Of a stretch of 64,000 nt of DNA, positions 21,490 to 25,862 are shown piece after piece. Positions within the stretch are counted from its first letter, which is position 1; every line of letters starts with the position of its first letter. Both the position numbers and the translations under genes were made by a program. The notes beneath the pieces were generated by a model. It saw only the letters and a program-made list of their open reading frames with translations, had not been told where the DNA came from and made no database searches. This DNA is from Halostagnicola larsenii XH-48 (lineage in GTDB: Archaea; Halobacteriota; Halobacteria; Halobacteriales; Natrialbaceae): positions 2,480,001 through 2,544,000 of the forward strand of contig NZ_CP007055.1 in the NCBI RefSeq assembly GCF_000517625.1. The letters are read 5' to 3'.

Positions 21490-21720
21490 ATGACCTCCGA
21501 CGAGGAGACGACGTGGGAGTACGAGACGGTTCGGCCGCCTCGAGAGGCCACGAAAGAGGAGGCCACCGATCCGGTGGACGTTCTCAACGAGCGCGGAGAC
21601 GAGGGCTGGGAATTCGTCGAGACGATCGATTACAGCGGCGGCGGCACGAAGTACCTCGTGTTCAAGCGGCCGAAGCGAACCGACGATGATGACGGACGAC
21701 GTTCGGGAACGGATCAATGA
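21490..21720 (+). CDS. DUF4177-like small protein
   Basis: 76 residues: TWEYETVRPP at the start and LNERGDEGWEFVETIDYSGG followed by GTKYLVFKRPK, the characteristic WEY(K/E)TV ... LNxxGxEGWE pattern of DUF4177. These are small beta-alpha-beta proteins of unknown role. The C-terminal ten residues are Asp/Arg-rich. The TGA overlaps the ATG of the next gene by 4 bp, so the two are translationally coupled. Confidence 0.75.
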   Translation: MTSDEETTWEYETVRPPREATKEEATDPVDVLNERGDEGWEFVETIDYSGGGTKYLVFKRPKRTDDDDGRRSGTDQ

Positions 21721-22727
21721 GCAACGACAAGGTCAGTACGCAAGACACGATGCGCGAGCGGGCCGACGAAAGCCGGCTCAAACTCTGGTTGCTCGTCGGC
21801 GCGAACCGACTGCTCGTCACCGCAGTTCTTGCCGCGACGTTCTTCGTCCTCTTCATGCTCGGCGGGGTTTTCGATCCCCCGCTTACGAACTTGCTGCAGC
21901 GGCGGGGCGTCATTGAGTCGATGTTTTCCTCGATGATCAGCGCGCTCATCACCGGCGTCACCCTGGTCGTCACCATCAGTCAGCTGATCGTCTCGCAGGA
22001 AAACGGCCCGCTCGGCGAGCAACGGACTCGCATGAGCGAGACGATGGATTACCGAGATTACATCAAAGAGATCGTCGGAAAACCCGCACCGGCTGACCCG
22101 TCGACGTTTCTCCGAGAGATCGTCGGCGCGACACAGACGCGGGCCGAAGACGTCAGGGAGCGCATCAAATCGACGGAGAACGAGGACCTCGAGCAAGAAG
22201 TCGACGAACTGGTCGACAGCATCATCGGCAACTCCGAAACCGTCCAAGAGAAACTCGACGGCGCGACGTTCGGCACCTTCGACGTCGTCTACGCCTCGAT
22301 GGACTACAACTACGCCTGGAAGATCTTCCAGATCGAGCGGATCGAAGACGAGTACGAAGATGTCCTTGAAGACGAACACCGGGATGCGTTCGACGAGCTG
22401 CGCACGTCGCTCGTCATGTTCGGCCCCGCTCGAGAGCACATCAAAACGCTGTATTTCCAGTGGGAACTCATCGACCTCTCGCGGCTGATCCTCTACGCCG
22501 CGATTCCGGCGCTGCTCGTCTCGGGGATGATGCTCACGTTCGTCGATATCTTGACGATTGGCGGGACCACGCTCGGGGCGGAAAACCTCCTCTGGGTCGT
22601 CGCCATTGCGTATACGTTCACGCTGATACCGTTCCTGATGTTGACCGCGTACGTGCTTCGGATCGCGACGGTCGCGAAGCGAACCCTGGCGATCGGGGCG
22701 TTGATATTGCGGGATTCGCAGCGTTAA
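21717..22727 (+). CDS. Four-helix membrane protein with a coiled cytoplasmic domain
   Basis: 336 residues. Two membrane helices at about 28-55 and 68-95, then ~130 residues of charged helical sequence (for example ENEDLEQEVDELVDSIIGNS), then two helices at about 258-280 and 285-312. The protein ends LAIGALILRDSQR. No transporter or enzyme signature is recognised. Overlap with the DUF4177-like gene suggests the pair forms one unit. The family has no function known to me. Confidence 0.65.
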   Translation: MSNDKVSTQDTMRERADESRLKLWLLVGANRLLVTAVLAATFFVLFMLGGVFDPPLTNLLQRRGVIESMFSSMISALITGVTLVVTISQLIVSQENGPLGEQRTRMSETMDYRDYIKEIVGKPAPADPSTFLREIVGATQTRAEDVRERIKSTENEDLEQEVDELVDSIIGNSETVQEKLDGATFGTFDVVYASMDYNYAWKIFQIERIEDEYEDVLEDEHRDAFDELRTSLVMFGPAREHIKTLYFQWELIDLSRLILYAAIPALLVSGMMLTFVDILTIGGTTLGAENLLWVVAIAYTFTLIPFLMLTAYVLRIATVAKRTLAIGALILRDSQR

Positions 22728-22808
22728 CGGGACTAGTGGGCGGTACAGGACGATCCGTCGCACCGTCGAGAAACGTTCTGCGAACTGTTGCACTCGAGGG
22801 CGACGAAG

Positions 22809-23280
22809 AGGGTGTCATAGAACCCTTCTCGAGGAGTTGGTTTCGAGCAATTCAAAGCGACATACCTACTCAGTAGGGTTGCGTACTGACCGCCGCTATT
22901 CTGTCAGAAAAGATTAGTTTTCAGAATCGCGTGCGAGAGACAGCCCATGGCGCGCGCTCGTTGCGAGCCACTGGAACTCTCCGGCTCACTGAGCTTGAAC
23001 AATCATTCGTGCTATGAACCAAGCCACCGTGCGAGTGCTCCTGCGAGAAGCACCAGTGCACCGGCAATAAACGTACCGGGAACTGGAAGTACGAACAAAA
23101 TTGCACCAAACGCGAGGACCACTGTTGATGGTTTCATCCAGAAGTGACTACGAGACTCAAACGGTTACCACTTGGGCCTCTCAAACGGGATGGAGCAGAA
23201 AGCTGGGGCCGTAGGGGTCTGCTGTACTGATCATTCGTCGGACGCCCTAGAGCGGTGTGAGAACTCTTCTATGACACCCT
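22809..23280. mobile_element. 472-bp transposable element with terminal inverted repeats and target duplication
   Basis: AGGGTGTCATAGAA at 22809-22822 is the exact inverted copy of 23267-23280, and similarity extends imperfectly to ~22 bp (TTCTC also shared). GCGACGAAG occurs directly outside both ends (22800-22808 and 23281-23289), a perfect 9-bp target-site duplication. There is no transposase; the element is of MITE size and must depend on one encoded elsewhere. The only ORF I trust inside is the 41-codon gene at 23012-23137. Family cannot be named from the ends alone. Confidence 0.78.
23012..23137 (-). CDS. 41-residue hydrophobic protein inside the transposable element
   Basis: The frame reads MKPSTVVLAF, then GAILFVLPVPGTFIAGALVL, and ends LAGALARWLGS. 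Two hydrophobic segments are separated by a PVPGT turn, a hairpin membrane protein. I recognise this as a small conserved haloarchaeal type, so it is probably real despite its length. It lies wholly within the 472-bp element and is read toward its left end. No Shine-Dalgarno or clear TATA box was found. Function unknown. Confidence 0.6.
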   Translation of the reverse strand: MKPSTVVLAFGAILFVLPVPGTFIAGALVLLAGALARWLGS

Positions 23281-23463: not shown

Positions 23464-25371
23464 ATGAATGTCGTGCCGGACACGAGCGTGGTCATCGACG
23501 GCCGCGTCTCGAAGACGATCGAAGACGGGCAGTTCGAGGGAGCGACGGTTTCGATACCCGAAGCCGTCGTCGCGGAACTCGAGGCGCAGGCAAACGACGG
23601 CTACGATAGCGGCTGGGACGGCCTCTCGGAACTCAAACGGCTGGCCGATCTCGCCGATGACGGCGTCGTCAACGTGGAGTACGTCGGCGAACGGCCAAGC
23701 GCCATGGAACGCGGCCACGCATCCGAAGGGGAAATCGACGCCCTGATCCGGGATCTGGCTGAGGATCTCGAGGCCACGTTCATCACGAGCGACATCGTAC
23801 AGGCCGAGGTCGCGCGGGCGAAAGGCCTCGAGGTCGAGTACGTCTCGCCGGAGGTCCGAGAAGTCGGCACCCTCACCGTCGAGGACTACTTCGACGAGGA
23901 GACGATGAGCGTCCACCTCAAGACGGATACGGTGCCGATGGCCAAACGCGGCGCGCTCGGCGAGATGCGCTACGAGGAAATCGCCGACGAACCGCTCGAC
24001 GAGGCGACGATGGACGAGTACGCCCGCGAGGTCGTCGACGGAGCCAAGGAGTCGAGCGACGGATTCATCGAACTGAAGGAACCGGGCATGCAGATCGTCC
24101 AGTTTCGGGACTTCCGGATCGCCATCGCCCGACCGCCCTTTTCGGACGGCATCGAGATCACCGCGGTTCGCCCGATCGCACAGACCGACATCGAAGACTA
24201 CGAGCACGCCGACGAGTTGAAGGATCGACTGCTCGAGCGCCAGCGCGGCGTCCTCATCTCCGGCGCGCCGGGGGCGGGGAAGTCCACGTTCGCGCAGGCG
24301 GTCGCCCGATACATCTCGGACAACGACTACTCGGTGAAGACGATGGAGAAGCCGCGGGACCTGCAGGTCGGTCCCGAGATCACCCAGTACACGGAACTGG
24401 GCGGTCAGATGGAAAAGACCGCCGACGCCCTGTTGATGGTTCGGCCCGACTACACCATCTACGACGAGGTGCGCAAGACCAACGACTTCGAGGTGTTCGC
24501 GGACATGCGACTCGCCGGCGTCGGCATGCTCGGCGTCGTCCACGCCACGCGGCCGATCGACGCCCTCCAGCGGCTCATCGGCCGGGTCGAACTCGGAATG
24601 ATCCCGCAGGTCGTCGACACGGTCGTCTACATCGAGGCCGGGGAAGTCGCGAAGGTCTACGACGTCCGGACGGAAGTCAAGGTCCCCGCGGGACTCACCG
24701 AGGAGGACCTCGCCCGACCGGTGATCCAGGTCACGGAGTTCGAAACCGGCGTTCCGGAGTACGAAATCTACACCTTCAACCGGCAGGTCGTCACCGTCCC
24801 GCTCGACGGGGACGAGGACGGCGGGCCGGGTTCGGAATCCGGCGTCGACCGCATCGCCAAACAGGAGATCGAACGGGAGATTCGCTCGATCGCCCACGGC
24901 TACGTCGACGTCCAGCTCAAGGGCCAGGACCGCGCGGTCGTCTACGTCACCGACGACGACATCTCGAGCGTCATCGGGAAAGGCGGCGGCCGGATCAACG
25001 ACGTCGAGAACCGACTCGGCATCGACATCGACGTTCGGACCCACGACGAGAACCCCCACTCCGGGGCGGGCGGTGCGAGTGGCGGAACCCAGCATGCCGG
25101 TGGGAACGGCCACGCGGGCGGGAACAGCGGATCGGGCGGCGGCCAATCCGCCGGGCAGATCGTCCAGCCCGAGATCACCTCGAGACACATCGTCGTCCCG
25201 GTCGACGGCCACCAGAGCGAGACCGTCGAGGTGCAGGCAAACGGCGAGTACCTGTTCACGGCGACGGTGAGCCGCGGCGGCGAGATACAGGTCTCTCGAG
25301 GGAGCGCGATTGCGGACGAGTTAGAGCAGGCGATCGACCAGAAAGACCCGATCACGGTTGTTCCCTCCTAA
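23464..25371 (+). CDS. PIN domain - ATPase - KH domain protein
   Basis: 635 residues in three parts. Residues 1-130 are a PIN domain (VVPDTSVVIDGR, with conserved acidic residues, and FITSDIVQAEVAR). About residues 200-470 are a PilT/VirB11-like RecA-fold ATPase with Walker A GAPGAGKST. About residues 480-530 are a KH domain with the IGKGGGRIN loop, then a Gly-rich linker and a small TRAM/OB-like end. This conserved archaeal architecture is thought to act on RNA, probably ribosome-associated processing, but that is not demonstrated here. Its last 30 codons are duplicated 197 bp downstream. Confidence 0.9.
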   Translation: MNVVPDTSVVIDGRVSKTIEDGQFEGATVSIPEAVVAELEAQANDGYDSGWDGLSELKRLADLADDGVVNVEYVGERPSAMERGHASEGEIDALIRDLAEDLEATFITSDIVQAEVARAKGLEVEYVSPEVREVGTLTVEDYFDEETMSVHLKTDTVPMAKRGALGEMRYEEIADEPLDEATMDEYAREVVDGAKESSDGFIELKEPGMQIVQFRDFRIAIARPPFSDGIEITAVRPIAQTDIEDYEHADELKDRLLERQRGVLISGAPGAGKSTFAQAVARYISDNDYSVKTMEKPRDLQVGPEITQYTELGGQMEKTADALLMVRPDYTIYDEVRKTNDFEVFADMRLAGVGMLGVVHATRPIDALQRLIGRVELGMIPQVVDTVVYIEAGEVAKVYDVRTEVKVPAGLTEEDLARPVIQVTEFETGVPEYEIYTFNRQVVTVPLDGDEDGGPGSESGVDRIAKQEIEREIRSIAHGYVDVQLKGQDRAVVYVTDDDISSVIGKGGGRINDVENRLGIDIDVRTHDENPHSGAGGASGGTQHAGGNGHAGGNSGSGGGQSAGQIVQPEITSRHIVVPVDGHQSETVEVQANGEYLFTATVSRGGEIQVSRGSAIADELEQAIDQKDPITVVPS

Positions 25372-25407
25372 GTAGCTCCCCGCGAGCGAACGGAGTGAGT
25401 GAGCGGC

Positions 25408-25476: not shown

Positions 25477-25572
25477 GCGAGATACAGGTCTCTCGAGGGA
25501 GCGCGATTGCGGACGAGTTAGAGCAGGCAATCGACCAGAAAGACCCGATTACGGTCGTTCCCTCCTAAGTAG
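25477..25572 (+). pseudogene. Duplicated 3' end of the PIN-ATPase-KH gene
   Basis: This 96-bp stretch repeats 25280-25375 with an offset of 197 bp and codes the same final residues (EIQVSRGSAIADELEQAIDQ, KDPITVVPS, stop). Only three bases differ, all silent third positions (Ala, Ile, Val codons). It has no start of its own. The sequence after each copy is also similar (CCGCGAG...GAGCGGC). It looks like a leftover gene end after recombination with a diverged copy. Beyond it, 25573-25862 is AT-rich and holds nothing I recognise. Confidence 0.8.
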
Positions 25573-25862
25573 TTCTTCCGCGAGTGAGCAGAGCGAACGA
25601 GCGGCCTTTATGCCGTGGAAATCGGTCGGGACTAAGATTCTGCCGACTGGTTAACAGCGTTTTCGACCGTGGACAGAGAGCAGTACAGTAGGAAATGGGA
25701 GAACAGACGAGAAAAACGGGATTTCCATGAAACACCAGTTGATCGCACGAGTATGCGTGTAGAATAGTTCATTAATACTGCAAGAGATACAAGTGATGTT
25801 TTCATCTACAGTAGCAAGTCATTAATTCGTCACAAGTATCTGGATAGAAGGTTTTAATATTC

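Follow-up and report, generated by a model that had tools for sequence, protein, structure and literature searches.

What is a 472-bp element that lacks a transposase but carries a small gene, and what could have moved it to its present site? The element lies in a window of 64,000 nucleotides, the whole stretch of DNA analysed here, from Halostagnicola larsenii XH-48 (contig NZ_CP007055.1, positions 2,480,001 to 2,544,000); coordinates without a contig label are positions in the window. An earlier note, made from the sequence alone, had described it as MITE-like and suggested that its 41-codon gene is spread by transposition or may itself be of help to the element, perhaps by encoding a stress peptide or something akin to a toxin.

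The transposition footprint

The following features bound the element; the two copies of the duplication were read directly from the sequence.

22800-22808, no strand: left copy of the target-site duplication, GCGACGAAG, exact 9/9
22809-22822, plus strand: left terminal inverted repeat, AGGGTGTCATAGAA, an ISH11-type tip
23267-23280, minus strand: right terminal inverted repeat, the exact reverse complement of AGGGTGTCATAGAA
23281-23289, no strand: right copy of the target-site duplication, GCGACGAAG, exact 9/9

Exact 14-bp terminal inverted repeats thus bound the element at 22809-23280, and the inverted repeat reaches 22 nt at 86% identity. The outermost G can be counted with either the end or the duplication GCGACGAAG, which leaves an ambiguity of one base. 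The 14-mer tip is found in the same genome in 6 exact copies and in 12 copies with at most one mismatch, while the reversed control gave 0. Among 99 inverted pairs that we collected, 38 were flanked by exact duplications 8 bp or longer, compared with 11 of 19,790 (0.056%) when left and right flanks were shuffled. Because the 14-mer recurs in the genome and its reversed control does not, and because shuffled flanks rarely match, chance repeats are ruled out as the source of the ends: the transposition footprint of the 472-bp element is real. The earlier note had come to the same view from the exact ends and the perfect duplication, whose coordinates proved correct. It was also right that the element holds no transposase, since none was found within 22809-23280, either among the open reading frames or by comparison with the transposase of ISH11. 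The 472-bp sequence as a whole is single copy in its genome.

Divergence of the intergenic sequence on either side meant that a search with the joined flanks did not recover a clean empty site. The right flank is present in four congeners. Of these, G003 alone also has the left flank next to it, and there an unrelated gene fills the space between the two. Had the repeats been fortuitous, the 41-codon gene might have been expected always at this locus without them; in relatives, the gene is located elsewhere or is absent. Two further observations concern the tips. A 109-bp MITE-like pair in the same genome (L023, C1:1942252-1942360) has the same tips and no clear duplication, and the 15-bp tip occurs exactly in 39 viral contigs of IMG/VR (L290-L328).

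The 41-codon gene

One gene is carried inside the element.

23012-23137, minus strand: cargo gene for a predicted 41-aa two-helix hairpin membrane protein, MKPSTVVLAFGAILFVLPVPGTFIAGALVLLAGALARWLGS, identified from the open reading frame and its relatives

Relatives of the 41-aa protein are present in 91 of the 295 genomes of the order, in almost every case as a single copy, and align with it over the full length; the dN/dS ratio of the gene is about 0.15, and no Pfam or NCBIfam model matches the protein. By these measures the 41-codon frame is a real conserved gene under purifying selection, and the description of its product as a conserved small membrane protein is borne out, the two-helix membrane hairpin being a prediction read from its sequence. 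Of 30 loci of this gene that were checked for ISH11-type tips, only that in the window has both; the locus in G001 has one degraded tip and the others have none. In two congeners, G001 and G004, the gene lies together with a degraded A end (see below) near secE/nusG, which we named from reading of the open reading frames, and it is missing from that place in G000 and G003. The occurrence of one gene at differing loci among congeners supports mobility. No broadly conserved synteny was found around it. Judged by this distribution, the gene is an ordinary haloarchaeal gene that lives mostly outside cassettes and was captured as cargo; in the cassette it is presumably expressed.

Two unlike ends and their interchangeable cargo

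An alignment of the ends of such elements revealed two unlike types, A and B, both of which are conserved past the tip and are absent from ISH11. The element in the window has one of each.

22808-22892, plus strand: extended B end, about 85 bp, inverted-repeat tip plus the subterminal motif ...CTCAGTAGGGTTGCGTACTGACCG (model R2, alignment A3)
23220-23280, minus strand: extended A end, about 65 bp, inverted-repeat tip plus the subterminal motif ...GATCAGTACAG (model R1, alignment A2)

The models R1 and R2 contain the row of the window, so separate leave-one-out profiles were built without that row. The B end scored E=3.5e-17 with R2 and E=2e-13 with the leave-one-out profile, and the A end E=2.8e-14 with R1 and E=1.5e-12 with the leave-one-out profile. 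In row L011 of alignment A3 the opening bases are in normalised form, the effect of which on R2 should be negligible. Within the window, the leave-one-out profiles matched the A and B ends and no other site apart from the shared tips. The element is therefore, by definition, an A/B-ended cassette of the ISH11 type, with one A and one B end in convergent orientation.

In the family Natrialbaceae, the A profile matches in 108 of 125 genomes and the B profile in 116 of 125, although these tallies overstate the number of cassettes because weak matches take in ISH11 tips. When the best 150 A and the best 150 B matches from the 125 genomes were paired, they gave 69 convergent pairs within 5 kb, every one of which joined an A to a B end (36 with A first and 33 with B first; length 289 to 4426 bp). 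About 25 of the 69 pairs had been used in building the profiles, and by our count about 44 lay outside the training set. Among 72 A/B-type elements other than that in the window, none contained the ISH11 transposase, which was detected in the positive control (L261), and none was autonomous. Exact target duplications of 8-10 bp flank 21 of the 72, and many cassettes have decayed duplications.

The genes between these ends differ widely. Among the cargo of transposase-less elements with the same tips are a 56-aa membrane protein (L021, L069), a cold-shock protein (L022) and proteins of 74 aa (L007) and 202 aa (L014). Pfam recognised, among others, a class I tRNA synthetase in L420, a methyltransferase in L422, and a TrmB regulator together with an Amphi-Trp protein in L421. 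L429 encodes a solute-binding protein and an ABC ATPase, L435 and L436 encode a PIN and a LUD protein, respectively, and response regulators occur in L425, L427 and L457; a TrkA_C protein is carried by L067 and a cupin by L042. Overall, the cargo also takes in lipoproteins, small membrane proteins, regulators and the operon of an ABC transporter. In our reading, the cargo occurs in both directions relative to the ends. Some cargo is repeated across genomes, as in L452/L453 and L021/L069. On this sequence evidence, the element in the window is a member of a large family of cassettes with fixed unlike ends and interchangeable cargo, and ordinary genes seem to be carried about among haloarchaea by transposon ends. 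The subterminal motifs of A and B may be required for transposition or capture.

Several neighbouring and related sequences were recorded along the way. The synthetase cassette L420 (G006:C8:17831-19532) encodes a 436-aa protein with a match to the Trp/Tyr class I tRNA synthetase family and has an exact 8-bp duplication. A 3.8-kb A/B region in the same genome as the window (L419, C2:359402-363170) carries a 338-aa cargo that by eye resembles the product of the window gene 21717-22727, located directly to the left of the cassette, and that is related to a 303-aa protein of L427 (27.5% identity). The last 99 bp or so of the PIN/ATPase gene (ORF 23464-25371), at 25280-25378, are duplicated 197 bp downstream, at 25477-25575, with 96% identity, and the spacer contains a CTTTTTTAGCGTAGATTTTTT repeat. 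Three A/B elements of about 290 bp with no evident gene (L439, L440, L441) carry a related CTTTTTAGCGTAGATTTTT repeat, which in L439 and L441 is about 74-75% identical to the spacer in the window. Two transposase-less elements of 263 bp with ISH11-like tips and exact duplications (L242, L279) have other inner ends and possibly form a separate small family.

The earlier description of the element as a MITE fits its size and its IS-type ends, but a MITE is non-coding and this element contains a conserved gene. One could regard it as a miniature deletion derivative of ISH11 with an accidental or incidental 41-codon frame: it is small, has ISH11 tips and no transposase, and MITE-like elements of about 150 bp with such tips and exact duplications do exist (L092, L129, L161). 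However, no ISH11 transposase sequence was detected inside the element, the purifying selection on a gene with relatives in 91 genomes is hard to reconcile with an incidental frame, and the A and B ends are common to elements with other genes. We consider such a derivative very improbable and the plain MITE reading largely refuted; instead of a usual MITE, there are two distinct extended ends and a family of exchangeable cargo. Still less credible is the idea that the small protein has been selected as a part of the element, as a toxin-like or stress peptide that aids persistence or transposition. Small membrane proteins do occur in many cassettes, but elsewhere the cargo ranges over enzymes, transporters, kinases and regulators, and at nearly all loci checked the 41-aa gene is outside cassettes. 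Because the gene lives mostly outside elements and sister cassettes carry unrelated genes, it is unlikely to aid transposition, a possibility that the earlier note had raised; nothing points to a toxin, and on the same two grounds we rejected a toxin-like selfish gene.

ISH11 and the origin of the cassette

Full-length copies with the tips of the window element are about 1069 bp long and encode a 330-aa DDE transposase, and annotated plasmid records name the matching full-length element ISH11, of the IS5 family. The full-length IS with the same ends that the earlier note had suggested looking for thus exists, and the outer 28 bp of its right end are identical to the right 28 bp of the window element. 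Two further features bear on the relationship and on the origin of the cassette.

23253-23280, minus strand: outermost 28 bp, the right (transposase 3') ISH11-type end, 100% identical in G016, G030, G006 and G001
22809-22943, plus strand: left module (element positions 1-135), which also occurs by itself elsewhere in the congener G001 (L018, 84%)

The 28-bp identity falls on the ISH11 end beyond the stop codon of the transposase. Several ISH11 copies have exact duplications of 7-10 bp. ISH11 and its relatives share with A and B the outer 25-30 positions only, and the relatives of ISH11 (about 70-75%) were rejected as autonomous A/B-ended elements because they lack the subterminal motifs of A and B. 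In the genome of the window, the ISH11 transposase is present as decayed fragments only, and a whole-genome search found no intact copy; A/B elements are also present in other genomes that have no strong ISH11 match. The element L261 consists of the left end of ISH11, an intact ISH11 transposase, two more genes and an A end, and it is flanked by an exact 10-bp duplication, GTAGAAGCTG; the own right end of ISH11 is missing. The simplest reading of this arrangement is that the ISH11 transposase used the A end in L261. Because in L261 the left half of ISH11 and an A end lie within one exact duplication, the ISH11 transposase probably acts in trans, and we infer that it mobilised the cassette in the window in this way.

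Taking this evidence together, we interpret the element as an ISH11-driven mobile insertion cassette that carries a captured host gene between B and A ends, a reading to which we assign a probability of roughly 0.86. The host gene for the 41-aa hairpin protein, with its own flanks, would have been captured between a left-hand B end and a right-hand A end; the ISH11 transposase, most likely acting in trans, would have bound both tips and excised the cassette, and its insertion at the present site would have produced the 9-bp duplication. The cassette is now probably stranded, because the host has no intact ISH11 transposase, unless a plasmid or an incoming element supplies one.

A different, unseen transposase, encoded by an A/B-ended element of its own, could instead move the cassettes, with ISH11 being alike merely at the tips. 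The absence of the subterminal motifs from ISH11 and its relatives, and of an intact ISH11 transposase from this genome, would agree with such an enzyme, which we nevertheless think unlikely: none of the 72 A/B elements is autonomous, L261, itself flanked by an exact duplication, couples the left end and transposase of ISH11 to an A end, and the duplication lengths agree with the 6, 8 and 9 bp published for ISH11 (PMC10264941). The composition of the cassette raises another question, compatible with an ISH11-driven mobile cassette but a stronger claim, namely whether A and B together serve as a dedicated platform for gene capture by which a B module is joined to a gene beside an A end. The left module meets a different module near position 136: positions 1-135 and 155-472 of the element match separate G001 loci about 110 kb apart, and positions 137-471 match G004. 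The cassette in the window gives the impression of having been put together from two modules, one with B and the other with the gene plus A. These modules are separate in G001 and joined in G000 near position 136, and the ends are constant while the cargo differs, as a platform would predict; yet no recombinase or joining mechanism was identified, and ordinary deletion or recombination between cassettes could yield the same outcome, so a dedicated platform is doubtful. Also improbable, if slightly less so, is the widest reading, in which such a platform would serve mobilisation as well as capture: the A/B cassettes would form a pool that takes up single host genes or small operons and passes them among haloarchaea wherever the ISH11 transposase occurs, as an archaeal counterpart of integron cassettes.

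Haloarchaea are known for heavy gene exchange, and the vehicle for single genes has hitherto been unclear. Transposase-less cassettes with fixed asymmetric ends and varying cargo would be a concrete, testable vehicle of this kind. Matches to the ends are present in most of the Natrialbaceae genomes searched, and an A end plus a B end is a simple rule for spotting mobile genes in them.

With respect to known systems, the transposition footprint makes it unlikely that the element is an integron gene cassette. It shares with ISH11 the outer 28 bp or so and a similar duplication length, whereas ISH11 encodes a transposase and has no subterminal A/B motifs; no transposase ORF is present inside the element and the whole-genome search has no match there, so it is not itself an ISH11 copy. 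An insertion sequence with passenger genes is termed a transporter IS (tIS). L261, with its ISH11 transposase and passenger genes, is of that type, in contrast to the transposase-less element in the window. ISH2 of Halobacterium and Haloquadratum, of about 520-530 bp, is likewise haloarchaeal and without a transposase; the short ORF that it carries encodes something else, and an insertion sequence, ISH8, moves it in trans (PMC3119063, PMC10264941). As described there, ISH2 has ISH8-type ends, 10-11-bp duplications and one type of ORF with homologues, whereas the window family has ISH11-type ends and interchangeable cargo. A search of the open-access literature, with subscription journals mostly outside it, found no published description of ISH11-type cassettes or of A/B ends. 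The closest likeness is to the mobile insertion cassettes mic-qnrD and MIC231, the latter from Bacillus cereus, where IS231A mobilises it in trans. In these cassettes, transposon inverted repeats surround passenger genes, a transposase is missing and the target is duplicated (PMC3913671). IS-related inverted repeats, a passenger gene without a transposase and a target duplication are all found in the element studied here. The window family differs from these cassettes in being archaeal, in its IS5-family (ISH11) tips, in its consistently unlike A and B ends conserved beyond the inverted repeat, and in the great breadth of its cargo, carried by elements 289-4426 bp long across a whole haloarchaeal family. 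From these comparisons, ISH11-tipped A/B cassettes appear to be new relative to the known mobile insertion cassettes, within a kind of element that is itself already known.
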